A DNA stretch of 63,203 nt from positions 1-63,203 of the forward strand of contig MEOG01000058.1 in NCBI GenBank assembly GCA_001769125.1, given 5' to 3'. Below are positions 98 through 55,096 of this stretch, piece by piece. The notes beneath the pieces were generated by a model. That model saw nothing but the letters and a program-made list of their open reading frames with translations, ran no database searches and was not told where the DNA came from. The stretch's first letter is position 1; every line of letters begins with the position of its first letter. This DNA is from Bacteroidetes bacterium GWF2_35_48 (GTDB taxonomy: Bacteria > Bacteroidota > Bacteroidia > Bacteroidales > GWF2-35-48). The position numbers and the translations under genes are program-made.

Positions 98-230
98 GTT
101 TGTCCAGAATGTCCGATTTCTGCGTTACGCTCATAATAAAAATAAGTCATTTACATCAGTAAACTCCTAATTTTTATTTTTTCGCAAGCCTTGAACTCAA
201 ACATTCTGAATCAAACATTGAATTTTTGGT
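98..230 (-). mobile_element. Degraded, inverted copy of the 142-bp palindromic element P1
   Basis: Read on the minus strand, this stretch follows the P1 element found intact at 19238, 39692 and 54781: GTTTGTCCAGAATGTCCG at one end, then blocks matching the GTAACGCAG, TTTACTGATGTAAATGAC and GAATGTTTG parts. The other end has decayed and no clear target duplication remains. The rest of 1-457 holds only the promoter at 333-397; I see no gene. Confidence 0.6.
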
Positions 231-1770: not shown

Positions 1771-1947
1771 GTGCCTGTCCTTAAAGTCAGTGTTTAGTTC
1801 AGAATGTTCGAGAGCAAGCCTGCCTTGCCGGTAGGCAGGGCTTTCGAAGAATTGTAAACCAAGGAGCCTGTCTACCGACAGGTAGATTTACTTTTGTAAA
1901 TGACTGTTTTCAATTCGAGAGGAACGCAGCTATCGGACATTCTGGAC
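1771..1947 (+). mobile_element. P1 palindromic element, expanded copy
   Basis: This is the same element as at 39692 and 54781, flanked by TAATTA at 1765-1770 and 1948-1953. It is 177 bp rather than 142 because two CCTGCC/GGCAGG-type palindromes sit inside it, and it lacks the last AAACAC. The gene-free stretch 1678-2282 otherwise holds the hairpins at 2013-2101, an element remnant at 2122 and a promoter at 2187. Confidence 0.8.
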
Positions 1948-3272: not shown

Positions 3273-5849
3273 ATGAAAAATACAAAACATTCACTTCATG
3301 GACAAACATATCCGGAAGAAACGAATCGTCAGAAAATAATAAAAATTATTTTAAAACTTGTCATAGGCTTTGGTATCATTTCAGTATTATTTTTTATAGC
3401 TATTACAATTACTCACAAAAAGCTTTCTCAACTATCCGAAACAGTTACTGAAATTTTGGAACCTGACATGAAAATCATAAAATTGAAAGAAATTACCAGT
3501 TCTTTATATGGCGCAGATGCTAACGTGAAAGCTTATGCTATTAACCAAGACACATCGTTTCTGCGTAAATATAAAAGTTACATTAATAAACTGAATACAA
3601 GTTTAGATACATTGCTTTGGTTGTATTTTGAAAATAAAATTATAGACGAAAATCAGGAAAAATCAAATCAGGTTTTTTCTTTACAGATTGATACTTTAAG
3701 AGAACTTATTAATTGGAGGATTCGTTTGTTTACAGAATATATAAAATTAAAAACAGGAAACGATTCGCAGGATGTTCTGGTAAAATTGCTTAAAAAAATT
3801 CAAATCAAAAAAACGATAGTAAAAAAAGATATTGAAAAAGAAATTGAAGTTCCTGAAAAATCATTTTTATCGCGTTTATTTTCTTCTAAAAAAAGTAAAA
3901 AAAATAAATCTGATATTGTTATTAATAAAGCGATAGAAGATTCTACTCATGTTAACATTCAAAAAATGATTACACAAGTTCAGCAGGATGAAAAAATTAA
4001 AGAAAATAAAATATTATTGAAAGAAATAAGCATTACACGACAAGAGTATTTTGTTACAAATCTGATTTTTTCGCTTGTTAATCAAATGGAAGAAAAAGAA
4101 CTTGCGCTTAGAATTGTTAATATTCATAAGGCTACAAATGAAACTTCTTCTAAAATTAATTTTATAAGTAATTCTATAACAATATTTGGCTTATTGCTGG
4201 CATTCTTGTTTTGGTACTTTATATATCTTGATATTTTAAGAGCAAAAAGATTTAAAGAACAATTATTAATTACAAAAACAAATGTAGAGAAAAATGCAGC
4301 CCATTATTCTTTGAGCCTTATTGAAGCAAGCCTCAATCCTTTAATTACAATAAACTCCGATGGAAAAATTATGGATGTGAACGAAGCAACAGTGCTAATA
4401 ACAGGTTTGTCAAGAGATAAATTAAAAGGAACTGATTTCTTCGATTATTTCACAGAGCCATTAAAAGCAAGATTGGTTTATAAGGATGTTTTTGCATTAG
4501 GGTCTGTAATTGACTCCCCATTGGTGTTAAGACATGTTGACGGGAAACTTACGGATGTATTATTTAATGGCTCCGTTTATAAAAATGGAGATGGAGTGGT
4601 TCAAGGTGTTGTTGTTGTTGCCAGAGACATTACAAAACAAAAATTATTTGAGAATGAATTGATAGATGCTAAAAGTAATGCAGAGCAGGCTACCAAAAAA
4701 GCAGAAGCGTCAACAAAATTAAAGGATGCTTTCCTTGCAAATATGAGTCATGAAATTCGTACTCCCATGAACGCTATAATGGGCTTTTCAGATATTTTAT
4801 ATGAAAGAGAAATGGGTGTGGAAAACAAAGAATATCTGAGAATAATTAAATCTGCAGGAGAAAATTTGTTGACAATTATTAACGACATACTGGACATATC
4901 AAAGATTGAAGCAGGTATGATGACTTTTGAAGCTACCAATTTCAGTATTAAGGAAACTTTTAAATCGCTTTTTGTTCTGATGATGGAAAAAACAAAAGAG
5001 AAACATATTGAATTATCATTAAACTGCGATGAAGATGTTCCGGATGTATTGCTTGGAGACCATACGCGTCTGACACAAATTATTATCAACCTTACAAGCA
5101 ATGCAATTAAGTTTACGAAAAATGGTGAAAACAGAAAAGGGAGTGTGTCTGTTCGTGCAAAAGTTTTGAAAAAAGAAAATGAAAATACATTTATAGAATT
5201 TACTGTAACTGACAATGGTATCGGAATTCCTGCTGATAAATTGGAAAGCATATTTGAACGATTCCAGCAAGCAGAGTCGCATACGACACGATTGTACGGA
5301 GGAACGGGACTCGGGTTAAGTATCGCGAAGCAATTAGTTGACCTTCAAGGTGGCTGTATGACTGTGAAAAGCGAATTAAAAGTGGGTTCTGAATTTACTT
5401 TTAGCATTCCTTATCAAAAATCTGTAATGACTCAAATTGAATCCGATGAGGTAGAAAAAAAATACGACATGAATGAGCTGTCTAAATTAAATATACTCAT
5501 GGCTGAAGACAATCAGTTAAATGTAAAACTGATTTTATGTTTGTTTTCTGAAAATAACTTAAAAGTAAAAGTTGCGGAAAATGGAATTGTGGCGATTGAA
5601 ATGCTAAAAGAAAATGATTTCGATATTGTTTTGATGGACATGGAAATGCCTGTAATGAATGGTTATGAAACAGCAACCTTTATCAGGAAAGAACTCAAAT
5701 GTGAAATACCAATTATCGCCATGACAGCCCATGCTATGGCTGGAGAAAGAGACAAATGTTTGAGTTTAGGAATGAATGATTACATCTCAAAACCTATCAA
5801 TTCAATCCTGCTTTTTGAAAAAATATATGATTTAACCCATAGATCTTAA
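3273..5849 (+). CDS. Membrane hybrid histidine kinase: sensor helix bundle, PAS, HisKA, HATPase, REC
   Basis: This 858-residue kinase has transmembrane helices at about 27-46 and 298-318 around an extracytoplasmic or membrane-proximal helical region. That region carries an unusual Lys-rich stretch near 170-215. A PAS domain follows (about 345-460; motifs LIEASLNPLITI and VARDITKQK). Next come HisKA with phosphoacceptor His493 in NMSHEIRTP, and HATPase_c with N box NLTSNAIKF and G boxes DNGIGIP and GGTGLGLS. The C-terminal REC domain has phosphoacceptor Asp789 in LMDMEMP. Phosphate should pass His493 to Asp789 and then to the HPt protein encoded 4 bp downstream. The PAS domain closely resembles the two in the kinase at 27889, so they are paralogues. 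The signal sensed is unknown. Confidence 0.9.
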   Translation: MKNTKHSLHGQTYPEETNRQKIIKIILKLVIGFGIISVLFFIAITITHKKLSQLSETVTEILEPDMKIIKLKEITSSLYGADANVKAYAINQDTSFLRKYKSYINKLNTSLDTLLWLYFENKIIDENQEKSNQVFSLQIDTLRELINWRIRLFTEYIKLKTGNDSQDVLVKLLKKIQIKKTIVKKDIEKEIEVPEKSFLSRLFSSKKSKKNKSDIVINKAIEDSTHVNIQKMITQVQQDEKIKENKILLKEISITRQEYFVTNLIFSLVNQMEEKELALRIVNIHKATNETSSKINFISNSITIFGLLLAFLFWYFIYLDILRAKRFKEQLLITKTNVEKNAAHYSLSLIEASLNPLITINSDGKIMDVNEATVLITGLSRDKLKGTDFFDYFTEPLKARLVYKDVFALGSVIDSPLVLRHVDGKLTDVLFNGSVYKNGDGVVQGVVVVARDITKQKLFENELIDAKSNAEQATKKAEASTKLKDAFLANMSHEIRTPMNAIMGFSDILYEREMGVENKEYLRIIKSAGENLLTIINDILDISKIEAGMMTFEATNFSIKETFKSLFVLMMEKTKEKHIELSLNCDEDVPDVLLGDHTRLTQIIINLTSNAIKFTKNGENRKGSVSVRAKVLKKENENTFIEFTVTDNGIGIPADKLESIFERFQQAESHTTRLYGGTGLGLSIAKQLVDLQGGCMTVKSELKVGSEFTFSIPYQKSVMTQIESDEVEKKYDMNELSKLNILMAEDNQLNVKLILCLFSENNLKVKVAENGIVAIEMLKENDFDIVLMDMEMPVMNGYETATFIRKELKCEIPIIAMTAHAMAGERDKCLSLGMNDYISKPINSILLFEKIYDLTHRS

Positions 5850-18357: not shown

Positions 18358-19251
18358 ATGAATTTCATAGACTATTATAAAATCCTTGGACTTGATAAAA
18401 CAGCAACACCTAAGGATATTAAAAATGCTTACAGACGACTGGCCCGAAAATTTCATCCGGATTTGAATCCGAATAACAAAGAAGCAAATGCAAATTTTCA
18501 GAAAATAAATGAAGCGAATGAAGTATTAAGTGATCCTGTAAAACGTAAGAAATACGATCAGTACGGAAAAGACTGGCAACATGCTGAAGAATTTGATAAA
18601 TCAAAACAGTATCAGCAACAATCATCAAATTTCGGTGGGTCATCTTATTCTGGCGCACAATCAGGAGGAGATTTTTCTGATTTTTTTGAATCCATGTTTG
18701 GCGGTGCATCTGGTAGTAGCAGGAGCAGACAAGCAAAATACAGAGGTAAAGATTTTAATGCGGAATTACATCTTGAGCTAATAGATGCATACTCAACCCA
18801 CAAGCAAACATTAACAGTCAATGGAAATAATATACGAATTACAATTCCTGCAGGAATAGAGAATGGTCAGACAATAAAAATATTGAATCATGGCGGCCCG
18901 GGTGTAAATAATGGACCAAACGGTGATTTGTATATTACATTTTCCATTGCAAATCATTCAAGATTCAAACGCTTAGAAAATAATTTATATACTTCGGTAG
19001 ATTTAGATTTATACACCGCGTTGCTGGGAGGTGAAATTACTGTAGATACAATGAATGGAAAAGTAAAATTAAATGTACCGCCTGAAACACAAAACGGAAG
19101 TAAGATTAAATTAAAAGGGAAGGGATTTCCGGTTTATAAAAATGAAAAACAATTTGGTGATTTATTTATTACTTACATCATTAAAATTCCAACAAATTTA
19201 ACCGAAAAACAAAAAGCATTATTTAGGGAATTATCTAGTGTCCGTCCATAA
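18358..19251 (+). CDS. cbpA: CbpA-type DnaJ co-chaperone with altered C-terminus
   Basis: This protein of 297 residues is read from 18358 ([12 protein letters not shown]); upstream in-frame codons add no J-domain sequence. Residues 5-68 are the J domain with HPD at 33-35, the contact for DnaK. A Ser/Gly/Gln-rich linker (about 100-130) and two beta client-binding domains ([35 protein letters not shown]) follow. There is no zinc-finger domain, which is the CbpA rather than DnaJ form. The last four codons and stop (SVRP) come from an inserted P1 element. Joining the flanks restores an end of RELSNLKH. The partner gene cbpM lies just beyond the element. Confidence 0.9.
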
Positions 19252-19379
19252 AGTCAGTGTTTGGTTCAGAATGTTCGAGAGCAAGGCTTTCGCAGTGTTG
19301 AAAACCAAGGAGTTTACTTTTGTAAATGACTGTTTTCAACACAAGAGTAACGCAGCTATCGGACATTATGGACAAACAC
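19238..19379 (+). mobile_element. P1 palindromic element (142 bp) between cbpA and cbpM
   Basis: GTGTCCGTCCATAA at the left and TTATGGACAAACAC at the right form imperfect inverted ends. TATCTA is duplicated at 19232-19237 and 19380-19385. Inner arms GTTGAAAAC/GTTTTCAAC and TTTACTTTTGTAAA can fold into a cruciform or RNA hairpin. The element overlaps the last 14 bases of the cbpA frame. Confidence 0.9.
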
Positions 19380-19409
19380 TATCTAACCTTAAACATTAAA
19401 TTGGAACCA

Positions 19410-19709
19410 ATGCAAACAGAAAAATTAATTGCCATCAATGAATTCTGCACAAGTCACAATATTGATGTCTCCTTCATCAGTTCTTTGCAACACACGGGTC
19501 TGATAAAAATCACAACAATCGAAGAATCAGTTTTTATAAGTTTAAGTCAGCTACAGCATTTGGAGAAATTTATTCGCTTATACTATGATTTGGATATTAA
19601 CATTGAAGGGATTGAGTCCATCGCCCATTTATTACAACGAGTTAACTCAATGCAAGAGGAGATTATTGCGCTTAAAAACAGGCTTCGCCTTTATGAAATA
19701 ACTGAGTAA
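19410..19709 (+). CDS. cbpM: CbpM-like chaperone modulator
   Basis: This 99-residue protein begins at the ATG at 19410 (MQTEKLIAINEFCTSHNID). A longer in-frame start at 19326 lies inside the P1 element and is not native. It has the CbpM/MerR-like shape: an N-terminal helical part with GLIKI and then a long C-terminal helix (HLLQRVNSMQEEIIALKNRL). CbpM binds the J domain of CbpA and blocks its activity on DnaK. It directly followed cbpA before the element inserted, with about 10 bp between the original cbpA stop and this ATG. Confidence 0.85.
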   Translation: MQTEKLIAINEFCTSHNIDVSFISSLQHTGLIKITTIEESVFISLSQLQHLEKFIRLYYDLDINIEGIESIAHLLQRVNSMQEEIIALKNRLRLYEITE

Positions 19710-19855
19710 TCTTAATCACTCAACTTTCGCAAGAATAATCTGAAATAGTAGTATTATAAATAAAAAAAATTTCAGAATAAAAAGACTAACGTAAAGTTAT
19801 TTTCATCAAAGAAAAAGTTGAAAATATAATTATGATAAAGTTGAGTTAAACCAAG

Positions 19856-20263: not shown

Positions 20264-20403
20264 AATTGGGAAATTAAAATAATTCATTAATTCTCAAATT
20301 ACAGAATTTTAAGTAATGAGATTCAGTTTTATTAGTATACTGGAGAAAAGTCTATGCTGATAATTGTTTTTCATTTTTATATGAAAAATAAAAATTGACG
20401 GCT

Positions 20404-21603
20404 ATGAAGTCAAAAATTAAACCTTTAATCCTGATTGTTGACGATACACCACAAAACATACAGGTGCTGGCAAATATTCTTTATGAAAAAGGCTACAACA
20501 TTTCTATTGCTACATCCGGTAATCAAGCTCTGCTATCAGTAAATTCTGATACTCCTGATTTAATTTTACTGGATATTCAAATGCCAGAAATTGATGGATA
20601 CGAAGTATGTGAAAAAATAAAATCAAACCCTTTAACAAAAGATATCCCTATAATATTTTTAACTGCAAAAATTGAAAATGAGGATTTATTGCAGGGCTTT
20701 AAAGCGGGCGCAGTTGATTACATCACTAAACCTTTTAATGTTGCAGAACTCACTGCTCGTGTTGCTACTCATCTTGAGCTGAAGAGATCGAGAGCAAGAA
20801 TTGAAACATTAAATAGAAAGCTTAACGTTGCTTATAACAAAATAAAAAACAGTATAGATTATGCGAGGCTTATTCAGGAAGAAATGCTGCCTGATTTAAA
20901 TATTTTGCAGGCAAAAGGAATACAACATCTGTTAATTTATAAACCAAAGGATATAGTCAGTGGTGACTTTTATTGGATGGCAATTAATAATGAAAAACTT
21001 TTTATTGCTGTAGCAGACTGTACGGGACACGGTGTTCCGGGTGCTATGCTATCTATATCCGGACATAATCTTTTAAATGAGATCATCAATATTGAGAAAA
21101 TTTATGATCCGGCTGCAATTTTATATAAACTGAATGAAAGAGTTCGCAATATTTTCAAGCAGGGATTATCTGAAGTTCATGTAGGTATGGATATCGCGAT
21201 ATGCGTGATTGACAATTGTGAAAAAACATTAGAATTTGCCGGAGCGAATATACCGATTTTGTATTTTAGTAATAGTAATGTTCAAAAATTAATTCCAGAC
21301 AAATTAGGTATTGGAGAGGATTACTCTAGAAAGCATAAATCCTGTTTTAGCACACAGATAATTAAATTTAATAAAGGAGACAGATTTTTTATATTCACAG
21401 ACGGTATACTCGATCAGTTTGATAATATGGATCAAAATAAAATAACAAGAAAAGGATTTGAACAGTTTTTTTCTATGCAGGTAGAAAAACCATTCAGTTC
21501 TATTAAAGAAAATCTGATGAAATTTATGCAAGACTGGCAGGGAGACAATCTTCAAACAGACGATATTCTTATAGTAGGTTTTGAAATTTCTAAACCTCAA
21601 TGA
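20404..21603 (+). CDS. Response regulator with PP2C (SpoIIE/RsbU-type) phosphatase output
   Basis: This protein of 399 residues is read from the ATG at 20404 (a TTG nine bases upstream is also possible). The N-terminal REC domain has acidic pair DD at 13-14 and phosphoacceptor Asp57 in LLDIQMPEIDG. A coiled-coil linker leads to a PP2C domain at about 165-395: DIVSGDFYW, VADCTGHGVPGAMLS, FIFTDGILDQFDN, QTDDILIVG, which supply the metal-binding Asp residues. Such proteins remove phosphate from Ser/Thr on partner proteins, often STAS-type anti-anti-sigma factors; no such partner is seen in the window. It has promoter site 6 and a tandem duplicate 27 bp downstream. Confidence 0.9.
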   Translation: MKSKIKPLILIVDDTPQNIQVLANILYEKGYNISIATSGNQALLSVNSDTPDLILLDIQMPEIDGYEVCEKIKSNPLTKDIPIIFLTAKIENEDLLQGFKAGAVDYITKPFNVAELTARVATHLELKRSRARIETLNRKLNVAYNKIKNSIDYARLIQEEMLPDLNILQAKGIQHLLIYKPKDIVSGDFYWMAINNEKLFIAVADCTGHGVPGAMLSISGHNLLNEIINIEKIYDPAAILYKLNERVRNIFKQGLSEVHVGMDIAICVIDNCEKTLEFAGANIPILYFSNSNVQKLIPDKLGIGEDYSRKHKSCFSTQIIKFNKGDRFFIFTDGILDQFDNMDQNKITRKGFEQFFSMQVEKPFSSIKENLMKFMQDWQGDNLQTDDILIVGFEISKPQ

Positions 21604-21630
21604 TTTTTATTTTATAAAATAATTTTACAT

Positions 21631-22842
21631 GTGGAACCAAATATAAAACCTTTAATACTGATTGTTGACGATACACCTCAAAACATACAGGTGCTGGCAA
21701 ATATTCTTTATGAAAAAGGCTACAACATTTCTATTGCTACATCCGGTAATCAAGCTCTGCTATCAGTAAATTCGGATGCGCCTGACTTGATTTTATTAGA
21801 TATTCAAATGCCAGGAATTGATGGATACGAAGTATGTAAAAAAATAAAGTCAAACCCTTTAACAAGAGATATCCCTATAATTTTTTTATCTGCAAAAATA
21901 GAAAATGAGGATTTATTGCAGGGCTTTGAAGCGGGTGCAGTTGATTATATTACGAAACCGTTTAATGTGGCTGAACTTACTGCCCGTGTTGCAACTCATA
22001 TAGCTTTAAAAAAATCAAAAGAAAGAATTGAAGCAGAAAAAGAAAAATTTGAGGCATTACATAAAAAACTTAATGTTGCCTATAGTGATATTAAAAACAG
22101 TATCACGTACGCTAAATTAATTCAGGATGGAATGCTGCCTGATCTGAATATTTTGAGGGAAATAGGTATTCAGTACCTGATAATATACAAACCAAAAGAT
22201 ACTGTCAGTGGAGATTTTTATTGGGCAGAATATTGCAATGAAAAGTTATTTCTTGCTGTTGCAGATTGTACCGGTCATGGCGTTCCCGGCGCATTGCTTT
22301 CTATGTCTGGTCATAACCTTTTACATGAAATAATAAATATTGAAAAAATTTATGATCCGGCTGAAATTTTGAATAATCTGAATGACAGAATACGTAGAAT
22401 TTTAAGACAAGGATTAACCATTATTCATGACGGGATGGATATCGCGTTATGTGTTATAGATATAAAAACAAAAACATTAGAATATGCCGGAGCGAATAGT
22501 CCGGTCTGGTATTTTCATGATAATGATTTTCAAAAGCTTTTTCCTGATAAATTAGCAATAGGAGAAGATCATTCTAAGAAAAAAAAATCCTGTTTTAACA
22601 AACAGATTGTTCAATTTAATCAGGGCGACAGATTTTTTATGTTTACAGATGGAGTGCTTGACCAATTTGATAATGCTAATCATAAAAAAGTAACAAGAAA
22701 AAGATTTGAAAAGCAGCTTTCGAAATATATGAAACAGCCATTCAATACCATTAAAGTAGATATGCTTAAATTCCTTAGAGAATGGCAGGGAGACAATCAG
22801 CAAACAGATGATATTTTATTGATTGGTTTTGAAATTTCTTAA
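21631..22842 (+). CDS. Response regulator with PP2C phosphatase output, tandem duplicate
   Basis: This 403-residue paralogue of the preceding gene starts with GTG. The layout is the same: REC (phosphoacceptor Asp in LLDIQMPGIDG), a longer coiled linker (KSKERIEAEKEKFEALHKKL) and PP2C (TVSGDFYWAEY, VADCTGHGVPGALLS, MFTDGVLDQFDN, QTDDILLIG). All metal-binding motifs are kept, so both copies should be active. About 90 bp within the REC coding region are identical to the neighbour, whereas the PP2C parts have diverged; this suggests gene conversion or selection on the REC part. Co-transcription with the upstream copy is likely. Confidence 0.9.
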   Translation: MEPNIKPLILIVDDTPQNIQVLANILYEKGYNISIATSGNQALLSVNSDAPDLILLDIQMPGIDGYEVCKKIKSNPLTRDIPIIFLSAKIENEDLLQGFEAGAVDYITKPFNVAELTARVATHIALKKSKERIEAEKEKFEALHKKLNVAYSDIKNSITYAKLIQDGMLPDLNILREIGIQYLIIYKPKDTVSGDFYWAEYCNEKLFLAVADCTGHGVPGALLSMSGHNLLHEIINIEKIYDPAEILNNLNDRIRRILRQGLTIIHDGMDIALCVIDIKTKTLEYAGANSPVWYFHDNDFQKLFPDKLAIGEDHSKKKKSCFNKQIVQFNQGDRFFMFTDGVLDQFDNANHKKVTRKRFEKQLSKYMKQPFNTIKVDMLKFLREWQGDNQQTDDILLIGFEIS

Positions 22843-27888: not shown

Positions 27889-30800
27889 ATGAAAAATTAT
27901 AACAAAGTTAAAATATTATTAGTAGACGATCGAAAAGAAAATTTATTTGCCTTAGAAGTAATGCTCTCCGACGAAAATTATTTATGCGTGAAAGCAAATT
28001 CTGGAGAAGAAGCATTAAAAATTCTTCTCAACGAACAAGATTTTGCTATCATATTAATGGATGTGCAAATGCCAATGATGGATGGGTTTGAAACATTAGA
28101 GTTAATTCGCCAAAAAGAAACAATCAAACATATCCCTATTATTTTTTTAACTGCCAGTATGGACACATCTGTACAAGTTTTTAAAGGATATCAAGCGGGC
28201 GCTGTTGATTATATGATTAAACCACTTTCTCCAGAAATATTAAAAGCAAAAGTGGCTGTTTTTGTAGATCTGTATAAGAAAACAAATGAATTATTAGTTC
28301 AGGACAAAGAGAGAGAAAAACGTGCAGCAGAATTAATAATTGCTAATAAAGAGCTTGCTTTTCAAAACGAAGAGAAAGAAGAACGTGCTGCTGAGAAAGA
28401 AAAACGTGCAGAAGAATTAATTATCGCAAACAAAGAACTTGCTTTTCAAAACGAAGAAAAAGAAAAACGTGCAGCAGAGTTAATAATTGCAAATAATGAA
28501 CTTGCTTTTCAAAACGATGAAAAAGAAAAACGTGCAGCTGAATTAATTATCGCAAACAAAGAGCTTGCTTTTCAAAATGATGAGAAAGAAAAACGTGCGG
28601 CAGAATTAATCATTGCCAACAAAGAACTTGTTTTTCAAAATGATGAGAAAGAAAAACGTGCGGCAGAATTAATTATAGCAAACAAAGAACTTGTTTTTCA
28701 AAACGATGAAAAAGAAAAACGTGCGGCTGAGTTAATCCTTGCCAACAAGGAACTGGTATTTCAAAACGATGAAAAGGAAAAACGTGCAGCTGAATTAATC
28801 CTTGCCAACAAGGAACTGGTATTTCAAAACGATGAAAAAGAAAAACGTGCAGCAGAATTAATCATTGCAGACAAAGAATTGGTCTATCAAACTGAAGAGA
28901 AAGAAAAACGTGCAGCCGAGCTAATCATTGCCGATAAAGAACTGGTCTATCAAACCGAAGAGAAAGAAAAACGTGCCGCAGAACTAATCATTGCAGACAA
29001 AGAGATTATATTTCAAAACGAAGAAAAAGAAAAACGGGAAACAGCAAATAAAGAACTTGAAGCATTCAGTTATACTTTGAAATTAGCTTCTCAATATTCT
29101 CTCAGTCTTATTGAAGCAAGTCTTGATCCATTGGTTACGATAAGTCCGGAAGGAAAGATTATGGATATGAATGAAGCTCTGGTAAATATTACTGGCATAG
29201 AACGTGAAAAATTAATTGGCTCTGATTTCTTTGATTATTTTACGGAACAACAAAATGCCCAGGAAGTCTATCAGGCAGTTTTTGCAAAAGGGTCTGTTGC
29301 CGATTCTCCACTCACACTCCGCCATAAGGATGGCAAGCTTACCGATGTATTATTTAATGGGTCGGTTTATAAAGATGATAAAGGAAATGTATTGGGAGTG
29401 GTAATTGTCGCCAGAGATGTTACTGCCCAAAAATTGCTTTCTAAATATTCGCTGAGTCTTATTGAGGCTAGCCTTGATCCATTATTTACCATTAGCCCTG
29501 AAGGTAAAATCACGGATATGAATCAGGCGACAGTAAAAGTAACAGGAGTTTCACGTGAGAAATTAATCAATACTGATTTTTTTGATTACTTTACCAAACC
29601 AGAGAAAGCACGAGAATGTTATCAACAGGTTTTTGCAAAAGGATTTGTTGCAGATTTTCCGTTAACTATTATGGATGGAAAACTTACCGAAGTATTATTT
29701 AATGGATCGGTTTATAAAGATGACAGAGGAAATGTGCTGGGTGCTGTACTGGTTGCGAGAGATATTACAGATCAAAAAATATTTGAAAATGAATTGATGC
29801 AGGCGAAAGAATCTGCTGAAGATGCTAACCGGATGAAAAGCGAATTTTTAGCGAACATGAGCCACGAAATACGCACTCCTTTGAATGCGATTGTCGGGTT
29901 CTCAAGCATCCTTAAAGAAAAAGCTGCCGGACAAAAAATATTCACAGAATATCTCGACAATATCATTCAAAGCAGTAAAGTACTTCTTTCTCTTATCAAT
30001 GATATTCTCGATCTTTCTAAAGTGGAAGCAGGTCGAATGGTTATTGATTATCAACCTGTGAATTTGAATAACATTATTCAGGAACTTCAGTCTGTCTTCT
30101 TGATGAAAGCCAAAGAAAAAGGACTGTCAATTACTATTCAGATTTCTGAAAGTATACCCGAAAACATTATCACCGATGAAAAATATTTAAGACAGATTTT
30201 ATTTAATCTCATTGGCAATGCTATTAAATTTACCGGGAAAGGCGGTGTTGATATTATTGTAAATTCTGTTTTCAAAGAAATTGGAAGCAGCAAGATTGAT
30301 TTGATTATTACTGTTAAAGATTCAGGTATAGGTATTCCAGATGATAAATTAACCGTCATATTTGAACCATTTATTCAGGTGGAACAAAAAAACAGGAGTA
30401 AATACGGAGGCACCGGTCTTGGATTGAGTATCACGAAGCGGTTGATAGAATTGCTTGGAGGCACCATTAAAGTGGAAAGTGAAATAGGCAAAGGCTCTGT
30501 TTTCTATATCATTGTTTATGATATAGAAATAGCTTCTTTTCATAGTGATGAAAGTAGCGAAAATATTATCCAGCATTTGCCGGAAATCAGATTTCACAAT
30601 CCCGTAATTCTTATGGCTGAAGACGTTCTTTCGAACCGTCAGGTAGTGAGAGGATATCTCGAAACCATGAATATTACAATTGTTGAAACGGAGAACGGGG
30701 AAGACTGTCTTATTGCTGCACGAAAAAACAAACCCGATTTAATTTTAATGGATATGCAAATGCCTGTAATGGATGGTTTCACTGCTATCAATATACTTAA

Positions 30801-31277: not shown

Positions 31278-31675
31278 TTCGCTAAATTTATTTCGCTAAA
31301 AAATGAGAATAGCAGATATTTTTAAATAATAATATTCCGGTGCGCTGCACCTTTGTAAACATCGCAGCTATCGCTGCTACAAATGTTATCGCAGCTCTGC
31401 TGCTATATTTGAAATGCAGCAGCAGAGCTGCGAAATATTTGTAAAACAAAAATGAATAGAGGAGTCAAGGTGCAGAGCACCGTAATATATACTGAAACTT
31501 GGCAGGTTTGCAAACAAGGCTGCTTAGTTTCAGTTATACTGAACGAATACAAATTTAATTATATTTTTGTAGCCCTTTTTAGCTATGCTGTCGAAGTATC
31601 TCATGCATGGATTGCTGTTAATAATAGTTTCAAATTACAAAAATAAATAGTTCTTTTTCATGCGAATGTTCAATT
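31278..31675. mobile_element. F-family palindromic element (about 400 bp), copy 1
   Basis: The core at 31330-31489 runs from AATATTCCGGTGCGCTGCACC to GGTGCAGAGCACCGTAATAT, enclosing CGCAGCTCTGCTGCTA arms. A second palindrome (ACTGAAACTTGG / TTAGTTTCAGT) follows. Ends with TTCGC and GCGAA form a weak terminal inverted repeat. AATAAGTAATT occurs at both 31267-31277 and 31676-31686, a candidate 11-bp target duplication that includes the stop codon of the kinase. No gene is seen in 31276-31742. Confidence 0.65.
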
Positions 31676-34065: not shown

Positions 34066-34395
34066 AATTAATTCGCTGAAAAAGATATCAGCAGCCATTT
34101 TCAAGAGAATATGTAATATTTTTTATCCTTTTTCTGTTTTCTTGAAATAAAAGGGATGCAATCAAAATAATATTCCGGTGCGCTGCACCTACAAATGTCA
34201 CGCGACTTTGCCACTACAAATATTTTGCAGCTCTGCTGCTATGTTTGGAATTCAGCGGCAGAGCCGCAAAATATTTGTAAAACATAATAGACATATGAGA
34301 ACCCAAGGTGCAGAGCACCGTAATATCTTAAACATGGATTAATGTTAACAATATACTCAAGTGACAAAAACAAATAGTTCTTTTTTTCATGCGAA
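34066..34395. mobile_element. F-family palindromic element, copy 2
   Basis: TTCAACTTTCGCATAAATTA is at the left and TTTTTTTCATGCGAAACAAC at the right. The core at 34168-34326 has the GGTGCGCTGCACC and GGTGCAGAGCACC arms. Together with TAATTCCTAATT-type short repeats (about 34470-34505) and promoter site 8 it fills 34013-34623; no gene is visible. Confidence 0.65.
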
Positions 34396-39205: not shown

Positions 39206-39692
39206 AATTATACTAAAATCTGTACCAATTTCCTTGATAACGTTAGCCTCTGTATTAAGCTTTTGGCGATACTCCATACTGCTGTTGTTTGCTGTTGTTT
39301 GTTTCAATAGCGTATCTGCTCAGAATTGTAATAATACTGAAAATAGTTGTTCTACTCCCCATGAAAAGAAATTTACCAAAAGTGCAATATCTCGTTCTAT
39401 AAAGATACGACATAAGCAAAGAAAAACTTTCAATGTAAATATGTTCGAAGGGAAGGAATATTATATTTCTGTTTGTGGAAAATCCAAATTAGGAAATATT
39501 CAGTTAAGAATACTGTCAGCAGAAAATAAATTAATTTATGATAATGCAGCCGCAGGATTAATAGATTTTATCATCATCAAATCAGAGTTAACACAGAAAT
39601 TAATTATTGAAGTATCCGCGCCTACAGGAAATTTTTCAGGCAAAGATGCTGAATGTATTGGTGTTTTAGTTGAATCACGGAAGACTAATTAG
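39195..39692 (+). CDS. Secreted protein of unknown function, paralogue 2
   Basis: This 165-residue paralogue of the preceding product has a signal peptide ending NSVSAQ at about residue 43. Mature landmarks are QNCNNTENSC, SAISRSIKIRHKQRKTFNV, YYISVCGKSKLGNIQLRIL and KLIIEVSAPTGNFSG, with the Cys pattern conserved. The frame overlaps the previous one by 11 bases, so the four genes 34624-39692 form one tight operon. The final TAG stop is formed across the junction with an inserted P1 element; without it the frame would end at the same codon as TAA, so the protein is unchanged. Confidence 0.75.
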   Translation: MDNKIILKSVPISLITLASVLSFWRYSILLLFAVVCFNSVSAQNCNNTENSCSTPHEKKFTKSAISRSIKIRHKQRKTFNVNMFEGKEYYISVCGKSKLGNIQLRILSAENKLIYDNAAAGLIDFIIIKSELTQKLIIEVSAPTGNFSGKDAECIGVLVESRKTN

Positions 39693-39833
39693 TGTCTGTC
39701 TATACAGTCAGTGTTTAGTTCAGAATGTTCGAGAGCAAGGCTTTCGCAGTGTTGAAAACCAAGGAGTTTACTTTTGTAAATGACTGTTTTCAACACAAGA
39801 GTAACGCAGCTATCGGACATTATGGACAAACAC
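39692..39833 (+). mobile_element. P1 palindromic element (142 bp)
   Basis: It runs from GTGTCTGTC to TATGGACAAACAC and is the same length as the copies at 19238 and 54781. TAATTA is duplicated at 39686-39691 and 39834-39839. It sits directly at the 3' end of the ABC operon and could form a hairpin in its transcript. Confidence 0.9.
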
Positions 39834-39866: not shown

Positions 39867-40315
39867 CAACGTTCGCATAAATTAATTCGTTAAAAAAAGA
39901 GAGCAGCAGTCATTTTCAAGAGAATTATAAAATATTTTTTTCTTTTACTGATTTTATGAAAAATTATGACTGAAATCAAAAAAAAATAATATTTCGGTGC
40001 GCTGCACCTTTTTTAACAACGCAGCTCTGCTGCTACAAATGTTATCGCAGCTTTGCTGCTACAAATGTTATCGCAGCTCTGCTGCTACAAATGTTATCGC
40101 AGCTCTGCTGCTACAAATGTTATCGCAGCTCTGCTGCTACAAATGTTATCGCAGCTCTGCTGCTACTTAACAATGATAGCGGCAGAGCCGCATCATATTT
40201 GTAAAAATAAAAAGGGATAGAGACGCCAAGGTGCAGAGCACCGTAATATCTTTTGCTTGGATTGCTGTTAACAATTGTTTTTAATTACAAATAAAATAGT
40301 TATTTTTTATGCAAA
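39867..40315. mobile_element. F-family palindromic element, copy 3 with internal expansion
   Basis: The ends TTCAACGTTCGCATAAATTA and TTTTTTATGCAAAAGTTCAA are imperfect inverted repeats. The core at 39987-40249 has the GGTGCGCTGCACC / GGTGCAGAGCACC arms, lengthened by a 26-bp tandem repeat. With the P1 element it fills 39693-40337; no gene or regulon promoter is seen there. Confidence 0.7.
40020..40166. repeat. 26-bp tandem repeat inside the F element
   Basis: Five full units and one partial unit of CGCAGCTCTGCTGCTACAAA plus TGTTAT begin at 40020, 40046, 40072, 40098, 40124 and 40150. One unit has a single change (CTTTG). Other F copies have one or two units. Confidence 0.9.
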
Positions 40316-49053: not shown

Positions 49054-49088
49054 TTTTATTAAAAAATTGTAACTGAAATAAAAAAAAA

Positions 49089-49425
49089 ATATTTCGGTGC
49101 GCTGCACCTTTGAACACAACGCAGCTATCGCTGCTACAAATATTATCGCAGCTCTGCTGCTATATTTGGGATGCAGCGGCAGAGCCGCGTAATATTTGTA
49201 AAACTAAAAAGGTATAGAAGAGCCAAGGTGCAGCGCACCGTAATATATACTGAAACTTGGCAGGTTTGCAAACAAGGCTGCTTAGTTTCAGTTATACTGA
49301 GCGAATACAAATTTAAGTAGCCCTTTTTAGCTATGCTGTCGAAGTATCTCTTACATCAATTGCTGTTAACAATTGTTTCTAATTACAAAAATTATTAGTT
49401 CTTTTTCATGCGAATGTTCAATATT
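49089..49425. mobile_element. F-family palindromic element, copy 4
   Basis: The core at 49089-49248 has ATATTTCGGTGCGCTGCACC and GGTGCAGCGCACCGTAATAT. It is followed by the ACTGAAACTTGGCAGG palindrome and TAGCTATGCTGTCGAAG block that also follow copy 1, and ends TTTTTCATGCGAATGTTCAA. No gene is seen in 48840-49665. Confidence 0.7.
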
Positions 49426-49665: not shown

Positions 49666-52600
49666 ATGAAAATTAAATTACTATTAATTGTAACAACAAT
49701 TATTTTGTTGTTTTATCCGAGAGTAAATTTTGGTCAAACGCCTTACTTGGGCGTATGTTCCAATTTTGCATTATTTACTGCAGGTGGAGCCCTTAGTACT
49801 GATGGTGCGACGGTCATAACAGGCGATATTGCCAGTTATACTTCTACCCCAACTGGTTTTTCTGGTCCGGGTTTAGTGTATGGAACTATTTATCCTGTAG
49901 GGGCAGCATCAGATCCTGCATTTACAGATGTGAGCCTTGCTTACACTGATTTATTTGATAGGGTGAATGATGATATCATCGGAACCCCATTAGAAACAGG
50001 TACTCTTACGCCGGGAACTATTCATCCGGGTGTACATCGTACAGTTGGCGCTGCAGCATTAAATGGAGATTTAATTTTTGACGGCGAAGGTGATCCGAAT
50101 GCTTTATTCATCATCCAGATAAGAGGAGCGTTTGAGATAGCATCATCAATAAATATTACACTGATTAATGAAGCCCGGTTTTCTAACATATATTGGCAGG
50201 TAAACACTTGGGTCAATCTGGGTGCTGCTACGGTTTTCAGAGGGACTATAGTTGCTGGTGGAGCGATCACTTTATTGGAAGGATCCTCTCTTCACGGCAG
50301 AGCTCTTACAACTGCGGGAGCTATCGAATTACATAATAATATGGTCATTTTTGTACCGGGACCAGCAGGAGCAATAACAGGTACTGCAACAGTCTGTCAG
50401 GGACAATCAGGAGTTGTTTATTCCGTTTCTGAAATTACCGATGCAACAGACTATATCTGGACATTACCTGCCGGAGCAACAATATCAGCAGGGGCTAATA
50501 CCAATAGTATTACTGTAGATTTTAGTGCAAGTGCAACAAGCGGAGTTATTACAGTGCAGGGGAGCAACACTTATGGCACTGGAACAGTATCTCCTGATTA
50601 TGCCGTAACGGTAAATCCTGCAACAGGTGCAACAACTTTTACAGCAGGAGCTATAACCGTTTGTCAAAATGCAATTGATGAAACATATACCGCAACAGCT
50701 GCAAACAGTACATCTATAGATTACTCTGTATTACCAATAACAGCAGGTGTTATAAATATAACTACTGGTGTTATGAATTGGGATGCAACATTTATAGGAA
50801 CAGCAACAATCACCGCTACTTCAACAGGTTTGTGTGGAACAACAACAGCAGACAGAGAAGTAATAGTTGACCCTGCAACAGGCGCAACAACTTTCACAGC
50901 AGGAGCCATAACCGTTTGTCAGAATGCAATTGATGAAACATATACCGCAACAGCTGCAAACAGTACATCTATAGATTACTCTGTATTACCAATAACAGCA
51001 GGTGTTATAAATATAACGACTGGTGTTATGAACTGGGATGCTGCATTCACAGGAACAGCAACGATAACCGCTACTTCAACAGGTTTGTGTGGAACAACAA
51101 CAGCAGATAGAGAAGTAACAGTTGATCTTGCAACAGGTGCAACAATTTTTACAGCAGGAGCTATAACCGTTTGTCAGAATGCAATTGATGAAACATATAC
51201 CGCAACAGCAGCAAACAGTACATCTATTGATTATTCGGTATTGCCTTTAACAGCAGGTGTTATTAATGTAACAACCGGTGTTATGAACTGGGATGCAGCT
51301 TTCAATGGAACAGCAACAATCACCGCTACTTCAACTGGTTTGTGTGGAACAACCACAGCAGACAGAGAAGTAGTAGTTGATCCTGCAACAGGTGCAACTA
51401 CTTTTACAGCAGGAGCAATAACCGTTTGTCAGAATGCGATTGATGAAACATACACCGCAACAGCAGCAAACAGTACATCTATTGATTACTCAGTATTACC
51501 AATAACAGCTGGTGTTATTAATGTAACTACCGGTGTGATGAACTGGGATGCTGCATTCACAGGAACAGCAACGATAACCGCTACTTCAACAGGTTTGTGT
51601 GGAACAACCACTGTAGACAGAGAAGTAATAGTTGATCCTGCAACAGGTGCAACAACTTTTACTGCAGGAGCAACAACTATTTGTCAGAATGCAATTGATG
51701 AAACATATACTGCAACAGCAACAAACAGTACATCCATAGTATATTCAGTATTACCTGTCGCGGCAGGTGTTATAAATGTAACTACTGGTGTGATGAACTG
51801 GGATGAAGCATTCAGTGGAACAGCAACAATCACGGCTACTTCAACAGGTTTGTGTGGAACAACCACTGCAGACAGAGAAGTAATAGTAAATACTATTCCA
51901 GCAGGAGGCGGAAGCATTGGAGCAGATATTGTATGTCAGGGACAAACAGGTGTTCTTTATTCAGTACCTGTTATAGCGAATGCAACAGATTATATCTGGA
52001 CACTCCCTCCCGGAGCAACAATAACAGCAGGTGCTAATACAAACAATATCACAGTGGATTTTAATTCAAGTGCTTCAAGCGGCGTTGTAACAGTTCAGGG
52101 CAGCAACATTTGCGGTATCGGACCCGTATCGGCAGATTTTGCAGTAACAGTAAATTCTTTACCAGCAGTAGCTGGAACTATAGCAGGTACTGCTGTAATT
52201 TGTCAGGGAGAAACCGGAATAATTTATACAGTTCCTGTGATAAGCGATGCAACAGATTATATATGGACACTTCCTGCAGGAGCAACAATAACAGCAGGAG
52301 CAAATACCAATTCTATCACAGTAGACTTTAGTGCAAGTGCAGTAAGTGGCAACATAACTGTGCAAGGCAACAATATCTGTGGTAGCGGAACAATATCTGC
52401 AGACTTTTCTGTAACCTTAAATTCTATACCAACAGCACCAACTGCAAGTACAACTGTTCAGCCTACATGCGCTATTTCAACAGGTACTATCGTAGTTACA
52501 GCACCTTTGGGAGCAGGTTATGAATACAGTATTGATGGTCTCAACTATCAAGCTTCTGCTACATTTTCAAGTGTTACCGCCAATGCTACGTACAATGTAA

Positions 52601-53472
52601 CAGTGAGAAATGCTTCTTCTATAAATTGTTTTTCATCAGCAACAGCAGTAACTGTTAATGCAGAACCATCAGCACCTGTTACCGCAACAGCAAGTACCGT
52701 AATTCAGCCTACCTGCTCAACTGCAACAGGAACAATTGAGGTAACATCTCCTTTAGGTGCATACGAATATAATATTGATGGAGGAATCTATCAGGCTTCT
52801 GTAACTTTTGCAGGAATAGCAGCAGGTTCACACACGATATTCGTGAGAAGTACCACTGATAATACATGTATTTCATCAGCAACTGATGTAACTGTGAATG
52901 CACAACCATCATTACCTGTAGCGCCGACAGCAAGTGTTACGAATCAACCAACTTGTGTTACCACTACTGGAACAATTGAAATAACCGCACCTTTGGGAGC
53001 AGGTTATGAATACAGTGTTGATGGGATTAACTATCAGGCATCATCAATATTTGCAAATCTTGCTGCCAATACTTCTTATAATGTAACTGTAAGAACTTCT
53101 TCTGATATTGCTTGTGTTTCTTCAGCCATTGTGGTTACAGTTAATGTTGTGCCATCAACGCCATCAGCAGCAGGGACAATAACAGGAACTGCTTTAATTT
53201 GCCAGGGACAAACAGAGGTAATTTATTCAGTAAACGTGATAGGCGATGCAACAGATTATATCTGGACACTGCCAGCCGGAGCAACAATAACAGCAGGCGC
53301 TAATACAAATACAATTACTGTAGATTTCAACAGCAGTGTCGCAAATGGAATTATTACGGTGCAGGGTAGTAGCAGTTGTGGAGAAGGAACAGTATCTGAT
53401 GATTTTGCTGTAACAGTTAATTTATTACCGGGAGCAGCAGGAACAATAACCGGAAGCGCTGGTTGCCAGTAA
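49666..53472 (+). CDS. Giant DUF3494 adhesin with tandem repeats, apparently lacking its C-terminus
   Basis: This 1268-residue protein is read from 49666, which gives a clean signal peptide ending NFGQ. One DUF3494 domain (about 27-240; LIFDGEGDPNALFIIQI, NIYWQVNTW) is followed by four PKD-like units (VCQGQSGVVYSV, ATDYIWTLPAGATI), five nearly identical 85-residue repeats, and three SprB-like repeats (QPTC...GAGYEYSIDGLNYQAS). It stops at GSAGCQ, just where the next PKD-like unit would continue with a CQGQTG sequence. No T9SS sorting domain follows, so surface attachment is doubtful. The next gene starts its mature part with the same motif and carries a sorting domain, as if one ancestral gene had been split. 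Confidence 0.85.
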   Translation: MKIKLLLIVTTIILLFYPRVNFGQTPYLGVCSNFALFTAGGALSTDGATVITGDIASYTSTPTGFSGPGLVYGTIYPVGAASDPAFTDVSLAYTDLFDRVNDDIIGTPLETGTLTPGTIHPGVHRTVGAAALNGDLIFDGEGDPNALFIIQIRGAFEIASSINITLINEARFSNIYWQVNTWVNLGAATVFRGTIVAGGAITLLEGSSLHGRALTTAGAIELHNNMVIFVPGPAGAITGTATVCQGQSGVVYSVSEITDATDYIWTLPAGATISAGANTNSITVDFSASATSGVITVQGSNTYGTGTVSPDYAVTVNPATGATTFTAGAITVCQNAIDETYTATAANSTSIDYSVLPITAGVINITTGVMNWDATFIGTATITATSTGLCGTTTADREVIVDPATGATTFTAGAITVCQNAIDETYTATAANSTSIDYSVLPITAGVINITTGVMNWDAAFTGTATITATSTGLCGTTTADREVTVDLATGATIFTAGAITVCQNAIDETYTATAANSTSIDYSVLPLTAGVINVTTGVMNWDAAFNGTATITATSTGLCGTTTADREVVVDPATGATTFTAGAITVCQNAIDETYTATAANSTSIDYSVLPITAGVINVTTGVMNWDAAFTGTATITATSTGLCGTTTVDREVIVDPATGATTFTAGATTICQNAIDETYTATATNSTSIVYSVLPVAAGVINVTTGVMNWDEAFSGTATITATSTGLCGTTTADREVIVNTIPAGGGSIGADIVCQGQTGVLYSVPVIANATDYIWTLPPGATITAGANTNNITVDFNSSASSGVVTVQGSNICGIGPVSADFAVTVNSLPAVAGTIAGTAVICQGETGIIYTVPVISDATDYIWTLPAGATITAGANTNSITVDFSASAVSGNITVQGNNICGSGTISADFSVTLNSIPTAPTASTTVQPTCAISTGTIVVTAPLGAGYEYSIDGLNYQASATFSSVTANATYNVTVRNASSINCFSSATAVTVNAEPSAPVTATASTVIQPTCSTATGTIEVTSPLGAYEYNIDGGIYQASVTFAGIAAGSHTIFVRSTTDNTCISSATDVTVNAQPSLPVAPTASVTNQPTCVTTTGTIEITAPLGAGYEYSVDGINYQASSIFANLAANTSYNVTVRTSSDIACVSSAIVVTVNVVPSTPSAAGTITGTALICQGQTEVIYSVNVIGDATDYIWTLPAGATITAGANTNTITVDFNSSVANGIITVQGSSSCGEGTVSDDFAVTVNLLPGAAGTITGSAGCQ
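50617..51891 (+). repeat. 255-bp in-frame tandem repeat, five units
   Basis: Units start at 50617, 50872, 51127, 51382 and 51637, each encoding 85 residues beginning PATGATTFTAGAITVCQNAI. The spacing is exactly 255 bp throughout and most differences are silent or single residues. Recent expansion or gene conversion is likely. Confidence 0.95.
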
Positions 53473-53527
53473 AGATATACGAACATGGGTCTTGAAGAAT
53501 TTTATTTCAGAATAGTATAACGAAATT

Positions 53528-53565
53528 CAGTCTGCCTTCTTTCGGATAGAAGGTAAGGCAGACTG
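53528..53565. other. Stem-loop after the giant adhesin gene
   Basis: CAGTCTGCC (53528-53536) pairs perfectly with GGCAGACTG (53557-53565). No T-run follows, so it is not a standard terminator; it may protect the 3' end or be part of a small palindromic repeat. Confidence 0.6.
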
Positions 53566-53624
53566 ACAAGATCCGGTATAAATCAAACTAAAAATTTAAA
53601 TAATCAAATTATAATTTAAAAAAT

Positions 53625-54770
53625 ATGAAAAAAATACTCTTTGGCAATTTGAAATTATTTTTTCTATTTGCTGCCTGTTTTTTTATACAACAAGTTTCCT
53701 TTAGCCAGACATCATTTAATGTGTGTCAAGGACAAACAGGTGTTGTTTATTGTGTTCCTGTAATAACCGATGCAACAGACTACCTTTGGACATTACCCGA
53801 TGGAGCTACAATTACAGCAGGCGCTAACACCCATACTATTATTGTTAACTTTAGCACCGATGCTATTAGTGGAATTGTATCCGTTCAGGGCATCAACAGT
53901 TGTGGAGCGGGAACAGCCTCAGCTGATTTTCCTGTAACGGTTAACGCTCTTTCCATTGCATCAGATAATCAAATAGTGTGTGCCGGAAGTTCAGCTCTTT
54001 TTTCCGTAACAGCATCAGGAACTGGTCAAACCTATCAGTGGAGAAGAGGAAATGTAAACCTAATTAACGGAGGAAATATTTCAGGTACAACTTCTGCATT
54101 ACTTACATTTAATCCTGTGAGTATTGATGATGCTGCGCCTGATTATAATGTAATTGTTACAGGAGCATGCCCTCTAAATGATACGTTAAAGAATATTTGT
54201 TTGGGAGTTAATATGCCTCCGGAAATAACCACAGAACCTTTCAGCCAAATAGTGTATGCTGAAAGTTCAGTTGATTTTTTTGTAACAGCAATAGGAAGTG
54301 GGCTTACGTATCAATGGAGAAAAGGAACATTGGATTTAATTGACGGAGGCAATATTTCAGGAGCAACAACCGACATCCTTACAATAAATCCTGCAAATAT
54401 TTCTGACACTGCTTCAAACTATAATGTAGTCATCTCCGGAACATGTTTTCCTATAAGCAACTCTGTGGAGGTATCGCTTTCAATGTATCCGACAGGCTTT
54501 AATGTGTTAAGTGCCGAAATAAATAATAATCCATTTATTATTTATCCGAATCCATTTACAACATCTATTCATTTTATAATAAATGATGTATCCCAAATCA
54601 ATGAAACAGTTTTAATGATATACAACGCACTGGGTGCAGAAGTAATAAATACAAGCATTACAAAACCATTAACTTCTCTTAAAACAGTTAATTTTGTTCC
54701 CGGAATTTATTTTTATAAAATAATAAAAGATGGTACTATTATTCAATCAGGCAAACTGATTTCTCTTTAA
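53625..54770 (+). CDS. Secreted PKD-like/Ig-like protein with T9SS type A sorting domain
   Basis: This 381-residue protein has a signal peptide ending VSFSQ (residue 28), then at once a PKD-like unit (NVCQGQTGVVYCVPVITDAT) of the kind found in the gene before. Two Ig-like units follow (GQTYQWRRGNVNLINGG, GLTYQWRKGTLDLIDGG) like those of the giant protein at 55097. A type A sorting domain from about 303 comes last (FIIYPNPFTTSIHF, VPGIYFYKI, IQSGKLISL). It should be exported by T9SS and anchored by lipopolysaccharide attachment. It combines domains of both neighbours, which suggests domain shuffling. No regulon promoter lies upstream; it starts 152 bp after the previous stop. Confidence 0.88.
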   Translation: MKKILFGNLKLFFLFAACFFIQQVSFSQTSFNVCQGQTGVVYCVPVITDATDYLWTLPDGATITAGANTHTIIVNFSTDAISGIVSVQGINSCGAGTASADFPVTVNALSIASDNQIVCAGSSALFSVTASGTGQTYQWRRGNVNLINGGNISGTTSALLTFNPVSIDDAAPDYNVIVTGACPLNDTLKNICLGVNMPPEITTEPFSQIVYAESSVDFFVTAIGSGLTYQWRKGTLDLIDGGNISGATTDILTINPANISDTASNYNVVISGTCFPISNSVEVSLSMYPTGFNVLSAEINNNPFIIYPNPFTTSIHFIINDVSQINETVLMIYNALGAEVINTSITKPLTSLKTVNFVPGIYFYKIIKDGTIIQSGKLISL

Positions 54771-54780
54771 ACACTAATTA

Positions 54781-54922
54781 GTGCCTGTCCATAAAGTCAG
54801 TGTTTAGTTCAGAATGTTCGAGAGCAAGGCTTTCGAAGAATTAAAAACCAAGGAGTTTACTTTTGTAAATGACTGTTTTCAATTCGAGAGTAACGCAGCT
54901 ATCGGACATTATGGACAAACAC
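54781..54922 (+). mobile_element. P1 palindromic element (142 bp)
   Basis: The ends are GTGCCTGTCCATAA and TTATGGACAAACAC, with TAATTA duplicated at 54775-54780 and 54923-54928. It inserted 4 bp after the stop of the upstream gene, ahead of the terminator at 54936. Confidence 0.9.
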
Positions 54923-54935
54923 TAATTAGAAAATT

Positions 54936-54967
54936 AAAAACCTCTACTTTAACGTAGAGGTTTTTTT
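54936..54967 (+). terminator. Rho-independent terminator
   Basis: CCTCTAC (54941-54947) pairs with GTAGAGG (54954-54960), extended by an A-run on the left and seven T residues on the right. It would end transcription of the gene at 53625, and the P1 element now separates it from that gene. Confidence 0.85.
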
Positions 54968-54996
54968 GATTGTATATTTCTTCTTAATATTTCAGG

Positions 54997-55061
54997 TGTG
55001 AATAATGTAAGTAATTAAAAAACTTATGTAACACTTCATGCTGCAAAGTAACGCAATTTTG
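54997..55061 (+). promoter_or_regulatory. Regulon promoter module (site 11) for the second T9SS triad
   Basis: TGTGAATA is followed by ATGTAAG (55005) and ATGTAAC (55026), 21 bp apart, with TTTTG ending at 55061. A third AAGTAAC near 55046 continues the spacing roughly. The start codon is about 35 nt downstream. Confidence 0.7.
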
Positions 55062-55096
55062 TATCCTATTCACAGAACACAAATAAATTTATAAAT

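Follow-up and report, generated by a model that had tools for sequence, protein, structure and literature searches.

An ERIC-like hairpin core on ISNCY-type ends: a candidate mobile element at a cbpA-cbpM junction in Bacteroidota

In Bacteroidetes bacterium GWF2_35_48, a palindromic stretch lies at the junction of a cbpA-like and a cbpM-like gene. What is this stretch, what could have moved it there, and what has it done to the two genes? The sequence analyzed was contig MEOG01000058.1 (63,203 nt, forward strand), which as a whole is called the window here. Our overall reading, to which we give a probability of roughly 0.82, is that an ISNCY-moved MITE has supplied cbpA with a stop codon and carries a covarying hairpin related to ERIC. 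The features of the window on which the argument depends are as follows.

18358..19251, + strand: cbpA-like gene for a J-domain co-chaperone (PF00226 and PF01556)
19232..19237, + strand: target duplication TATCTA, left copy
19238..19379, + strand: MITE, 142 bp, with ISNCY-type ends GTGTCCGTCCATAAAGTC ... GACATTATGGACAAACAC around a core read as an ERIC-type hairpin
19270..19367, + strand: conserved covarying hairpin core, matching models R1 and R2
19380..19385, + strand: target duplication TATCTA, right copy
19410..19709, + strand: cbpM-like gene (MerR_2, PF13591)
39692..39833, + strand: full copy no. 2, with a TAATTA duplication
54781..54922, + strand: full copy no. 3, with a TAATTA duplication
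108..205, - strand: additional hairpin-core match (covariance model)
1824..1941, + strand: additional divergent hairpin-core match (E 9e-5)

A first-pass annotation had placed a 142-bp element at 19238-19379 with TATCTA on each side, and both were at those positions. TATCTA is not self-complementary and is therefore a direct duplication rather than a piece of the inverted repeat. The element supplies the cbpA stop codon together with the last four codons, the first of these in part. As had been proposed, CbpA ends in SVRP within the element: the protein tail reads ...ELSSVRP*, and the stop at 19249-19251 ends 14 nt inside. Joining the flanks with one TATCTA removed also gave the predicted ancestral reading, ...ELSNLKH*, whose stop codon (19397-19399) lies 10 nt upstream of the cbpM start codon, the ATG at 19410. 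The NCBIfam models for curved DNA-binding protein (PRK10266, 200.8 bits against a cut-off of 403) and for CbpM (PRK10265, 18.4 bits against a cut-off of 138) matched the two products below cut-off, so the gene names rest on domain architecture and adjacency.

We compared 100 cbpA loci in sets of 20 and 80, with the window locus included and some loci reached twice (L057 is L107, for example). cbpM lay downstream of cbpA in 87 of the 100 and was absent there in 13. With the window left out, the gap between the genes was at most 20 bp in 76 of 86 loci, which bears out an insertion into the junction; it was 46-97 bp in 8 more, 351 bp in L150 and 366 bp in L111. Six of these ten larger gaps were read. 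L111 and L150, from two other species, have different inserts (2238-2640 and 3886-4240, respectively), a long unrelated palindrome in the first and other repeats in the second, so this gap has taken other inserts. By blast, only the window locus among the 100 matched the element, and none of the other 99 was found to have it. In these relatives, as distinct from the sister strains in which the annotation suggested looking for an empty site, an unoccupied TATCTA stands at the homologous codon in 3 of 90 rows, namely L057 and L107 (one locus) and L139.

Two claims about the consequences held in part. The change from NLKH to SVRP is real, but to call the end of CbpA rewritten was an overstatement, because CbpA C-terminal tails vary widely among the compared loci and the part after ELS varies freely. 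As far as the sequences can tell, the change is a small one, inside the natural variation of the tail. An in-frame ATG at 19326, opening an ORF of 19326-19709, is likewise present as had been noted, but its proposed role as a new CbpM start was rejected: a start at the native ATG (19410) agrees with the relatives, and the ATG at 19326 is part of the hairpin stem. The insertion looks mostly neutral for the cbpA-cbpM operon.

The element has the marks of a MITE. It is short, present in many copies and without a conserved protein: 142 bp, three full copies in the window alone (19238-19379, 39692-39833 and 54781-54922) and 46 blast matches of the element plus flank in the 5.98-Mb, 142-contig genome, a count that includes the self-match and single-copy fragments. 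A conserved peptide was rejected because single-base indels between copies break any shared frame (judged by eye). Identity with an Rfam RNA was also rejected: window positions 19000-19700 gave no Rfam match at E ≤ 1, and in six other loci only tRNAs matched, with no gathering score reached by the element. The window element had no match to plasmid records at E ≤ 0.01, and a pattern scan of viral contigs found nothing.

The window also contains other repeats. Palindromes of the GCAGCTCTGCTGCTA / GCGGCAGAGCCGC type with 26-bp tandem units form a separate family at 31338-31467, 34215-34303, 39994-40227 and 49081-49224. At 28266-29132 a 63-bp direct repeat occurs in ten overlapping copies, and arrays of direct repeats, each repeat 255-276 bp long, occupy 50360-58872. 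Two tandem ORFs of about 400 aa at 20395-22842 look like response regulators, and their first 300 bases are 93% identical.

Terminal inverted repeats and target duplications were assessed by a paired-end search of 75 loci of this genome, which gave 35 end-pairs, among them one spurious pairing across a locus and the IS described below. The 6-bp duplication was perfect in 25 of the 35, matched at 5/6 in 4 and was worse in 6, so that 29 of 35 reached 5/6 or better. All 25 perfect duplications read TANNTA. Eleven of them are not self-complementary and are therefore duplications rather than extensions of the inverted repeats. The right-end pattern had 55 matches and its reversed-pattern control none; the left-end pattern, which at 3 mismatches also picks up right ends, had 106 matches and its control 1.

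The same genome contains a complete IS with like ends (1642 bp, at G000:C133), with TAATTA on both sides and a 443-aa ORF. The ORF product scored 332 bits (331.7 on repeat) against the ISNCY model NF033593, whose cut-off is 325, and of two matches in the assembled genome it is the sole one above that cut-off. The left end of the MITE resembles the left end of the IS (ATAAA) and its right end resembles the right (ATAATGTC). In 12 of 14 stretches examined, the exceptions being the complete IS and L052, the contig stops less than about 100 bases from such an end; these stretches have a TANNTA flank and comprise two further inner sequences. They look like collapsed multi-copy IS known from their ends alone. 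The transposase encoded at G000:C133 is most likely what moved the MITE, given the likeness of the ends.

On this reading, the ISNCY-type DDE transposase of the resident IS would have moved the MITE into a TANNTA target. At cbpA the target was TATCTA, four codons before the stop, and its 6 bp were duplicated. With the left end came a stop in the cbpA frame, and CbpA exchanged its NLKH for SVRP. By analogy with work on ERIC, the hairpin may alter how stable the cbpA message is compared with that of cbpM, depending on orientation. The analogy for an effect on an upstream message comes from studies of RNase E and ERIC in Yersinia, as described in PMC2229807 and PMC10969869.

Is the hairpin itself maintained? 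The loci yielded 71 distinct hairpins, and 45 were chosen for alignment (7 of them from this genome, the other 38 from relatives); the 26 left out had long insertions, were near-duplicates or were among a few others (such as L224, with a diverged right arm, and L233). The consensus of the 45 has 28 pairs, 19 of them with double changes. Standard pairs fill 96.2% of cells, compared with 85.0% in shuffles and 34-48% when the arms are slid, and none of 500 shuffles reached any of the five measures. Kinship by itself may lift percentage and score above those of shuffles but seldom lifts the number of pairs or of types, and both of these numbers lay above the shuffles. As a guard against the choice of copies, we realigned all hairpins of at most 100 nt (62 of 71), which gave 25 pairs, 18 double changes and 96.9% standard pairs. 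The hairpin is held by compensatory change.

The two strands are not equivalent. The + strand had the lower energy in every one of the 71 copies, with means of -36.1 and -23.9 kcal/mol, and in the 45-copy set (-35.6 and -23.4 kcal/mol). In the + strand structure there are 136 G-T cells against 8 A-C cells, or 22 against 8 without three wobble-dominated pairs, a count that leans to the + strand because the structure was derived on that strand. Over the full length of the window element the two strands differ modestly (-48.4 and -42.6, z below -4.7 on both). Compensatory changes and strand bias together imply that the fold is maintained and not just the ends.

Insertion sites also showed a bias. 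We used 51 copies with enough flank and distinct flanks, 33 from this genome and 18 from others, leaving out a contig-end artefact (L022). An ORF of at least 80 codons ended at the right end only in 26 copies, at the left only in 4, at both in 2 and at neither in 19 (p 6e-5). Restricting the count to the 33 copies with a good duplication gave 13 right and 4 left (p 0.05), and the other genomes gave 9 right and 0 left. The right-side stop most often ends at +1 (target TA plus element G; 12) or at -3 (target TAA; 9). These positions and the end bias show that stop codons are a frequent place of insertion, mostly with the weaker strand of the element in the mRNA of the gene concerned. The orientation bias could come from target asymmetry or from selection. 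Three of the four left-end cases are the cbpA-cbpM copy and the two other full window copies; the upstream ORF stops 1 nt inside the copy at 39692-39833 and 10 nt before the copy at 54781-54922. The cbpA copy has the rarer orientation, in which the mRNA carries the more stable strand.

The core extends well beyond this genome and beyond one type of end. With 150 of 4820 candidates scored, covariance model R1 matched at least 125 places in this genome; in a phylum sample it matched 24 of 395 genomes: this one, 20 of family f136, 2 of family f142 and one with a single weak match. In the order, blast matches occurred in at least 57 of 295 genomes with two candidates scored per genome. Model R2, built partly from genomes of this order sample, matched at least 83 of the 295 genomes and at least 65 of 183 genera, this genome included, with 14 candidates per genome. 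R2 did not match the one other sampled genome of the genus, in which blast gave a match of just 26 bp. In a second set of copies, found here and in other genomes, CAAGAAAAC-type ends enclose the same core. Among 26 f136 and f142 loci that were read, GGGCACCTCTA-like ends were seen by eye in about half of the 23 from f136. A script run on the 26 found 4-bp duplications in six (L260, L265, L267, L270, L275 and L276), one of 6 bp in L251, one of 3 bp in L268 and none in 18. This third, GGGCACCTCTA-type end class is less firmly shown than the first end type.

ERIC repeats have long been used to fingerprint gut bacteria. To our knowledge, the origin and the mover of ERIC are unknown despite decades of such use; other MITEs have been tied to IS by later work, and our literature search found no IS tied to ERIC. 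A connection to the present element emerged when an f136 copy was compared by blast with plasmid records: 18 matched, 16 of them from Enterobacterales. An ERIC pattern applied to four such records gave two copies in E. coli and two in K. aerogenes, and found none in the Comamonas and Aeromonas records. The four copies were first picked by this pattern. Two of the four have the exact ERIC2 primer site, a string that co-occurs with the word ERIC2 in 127 papers.

Neither model had seen these sequences. R1 was built from Bacteroidales copies alone, with no proteobacterial or f136 sequence, and R2 from copies of the phylum Bacteroidota without proteobacterial sequence. Run with filters off over 12 kb, R1 ranked the four ERIC copies 1-4 (E 4e-5 to 1.3e-3; the next match was at 0.087) and aligned them in the same strand and register as the Bacteroidales cores. 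Over the four loci L277-L280, R1 found nothing with default filters; with filters off it matched the Comamonas repeat (E 0.0025) and missed the repeats of L277, L278 and L280. R2 was scanned over three whole proteobacterial records (2.35 Mb, the Aeromonas record excluded) and found seven places at E ≤ 0.1: the four ERIC copies, at E values that are modest singly (0.001, 0.0014, 0.057 and 0.082), and the three repeats through which these records had been selected. All four of the places that had not been preselected thus coincide with ERIC. To control for background, R2 was run over 419 kb of cbpA loci (61 of the 80); a single match came out at E ≤ 1, which indicates that weak matches are uncommon. 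That match, L156 5132-5231 (E 4e-15), is strong, comes from a record titled Flavobacteriales and lies outside the source set of the model.

Around position 930-1130 of L277, L278 and L280 lies an enterobacterial/Aeromonas repeat with a CCGGAGCGTAC...GTACGTGA core common to the f136 copies. For the enterobacterial repeat matched by the f136 copy (L277), RU-3 and RSA were suspected at first. The RU-3 sequence given in PMC2759123 starts differently, and we give the repeat no name.

The main competitor to shared descent is a plain ISNCY-derived MITE whose likeness to ERIC arose by convergence, both being merely long palindromes. It would explain why the ends of ERIC differ from those of the element, why the individual ERIC matches are modest and why R1, even unfiltered, does not find three of the four other proteobacterial repeats. 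We nevertheless consider it improbable. Unpaired letters are conserved as well (AAGGC, AACG and GGAG/TGA), which favors descent over convergence, and an ERIC-free model picked out the ERIC copies and no family-unrelated place in 2.35 Mb, while in 419 kb of other loci it gave one match, a strong one. The window element matches the covariance model of the shared core, and models made with no ERIC sequence still match the ERIC copies. On sequence grounds it is thus quite probable that this core and that of ERIC share an ancestor, and we conclude that the element is, in all appearance, an ERIC-type core on ISNCY-type ends.

Two other accounts concern the role and the mode of movement of the element. 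It might be a domesticated regulator of cbpA-cbpM, kept for a hairpin that sets the ratio of co-chaperone to modulator; the sense orientation, the hairpin z of -5.3 at this site and the other inserts of 366 and 351 bp in the same gap of two species (L111 and L150) agree with this. Such a role is very unlikely when 0 of 99 other cbpA loci have the element, dozens of other sites do, and the orientation at cbpA is the minority one. That it is a REP/RAYT-type palindrome or a transcription terminator, instead of a transposase-moved MITE, has almost nothing left to recommend it beyond its palindromic form and its frequent position at gene 3' ends, for it has terminal inverted repeats, a 6-bp target duplication and an IS partner with like ends. 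A terminator was also rejected directly, no terminator-like site having been found in 19150-19760. We therefore retain an ISNCY-moved MITE with an ERIC-related hairpin as the best explanation.

An ERIC-type core between ends that match a resident IS of an identified transposase family makes transposition directly testable. A broader idea, on which we are evenly divided, would make ERIC the enterobacterial branch of a superfamily that crosses phyla and in which one strand-selected fold has been reused with several unrelated ends: the TCCATAA type (TANNTA duplications), the CAAGAAAAC type and the GGGCACCTCTA type (4-bp duplications). If this were true, the ends would tell which transposase moves each branch and so offer a route to the mover of ERIC, and the core fold would be a selected payload that makes inserts in transcripts tolerable or useful. 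We found nothing in the open-access literature linking ERIC to Bacteroidota or Chlorobia, which is no proof of novelty.

With the ISNCY family (NF033593) the MITE shares like ends, with left and right distinguishable, and the TANNTA duplication; it differs in having no transposase, the ends alone being in common. ISDol1 is a group with 6-7 bp duplications, a range for which our literature search gave no confirmation. Correia/NEMIS, RUP and BOX are not known to share the ends or the core of the element. Like it, they are MITEs that place folded RNA in transcripts, according to PMC10969869 and PMC2229807. The IS1202 family also comes from the ISNCY category and has a transposase of about 440 aa and an outer TGT, which here lies one base further in, but PMC10132070 gives its duplications as 3-5, >15 or 0 bp; the 6 bp found here fall outside that published description, which sets the element apart. 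ERIC proper is a 127-bp unit with primer sites, whereas the element is 142 bp long, matches ERIC1R with 6 mismatches and does not match ERIC2 within 7. Its host is a member of the Bacteroidota, and on the outside it has ISNCY-type ends and a TANNTA duplication. What it shares with ERIC (also IRU or RU-1) is the core, GGAG-stem-loop-stem-TGAC flanked by AAGGC and AACGCA, and, as PMC2229807 and PMC10969869 describe ERIC, the character of a MITE that lies between genes, in some cases at gene 3' ends, and is bounded by a TA motif.
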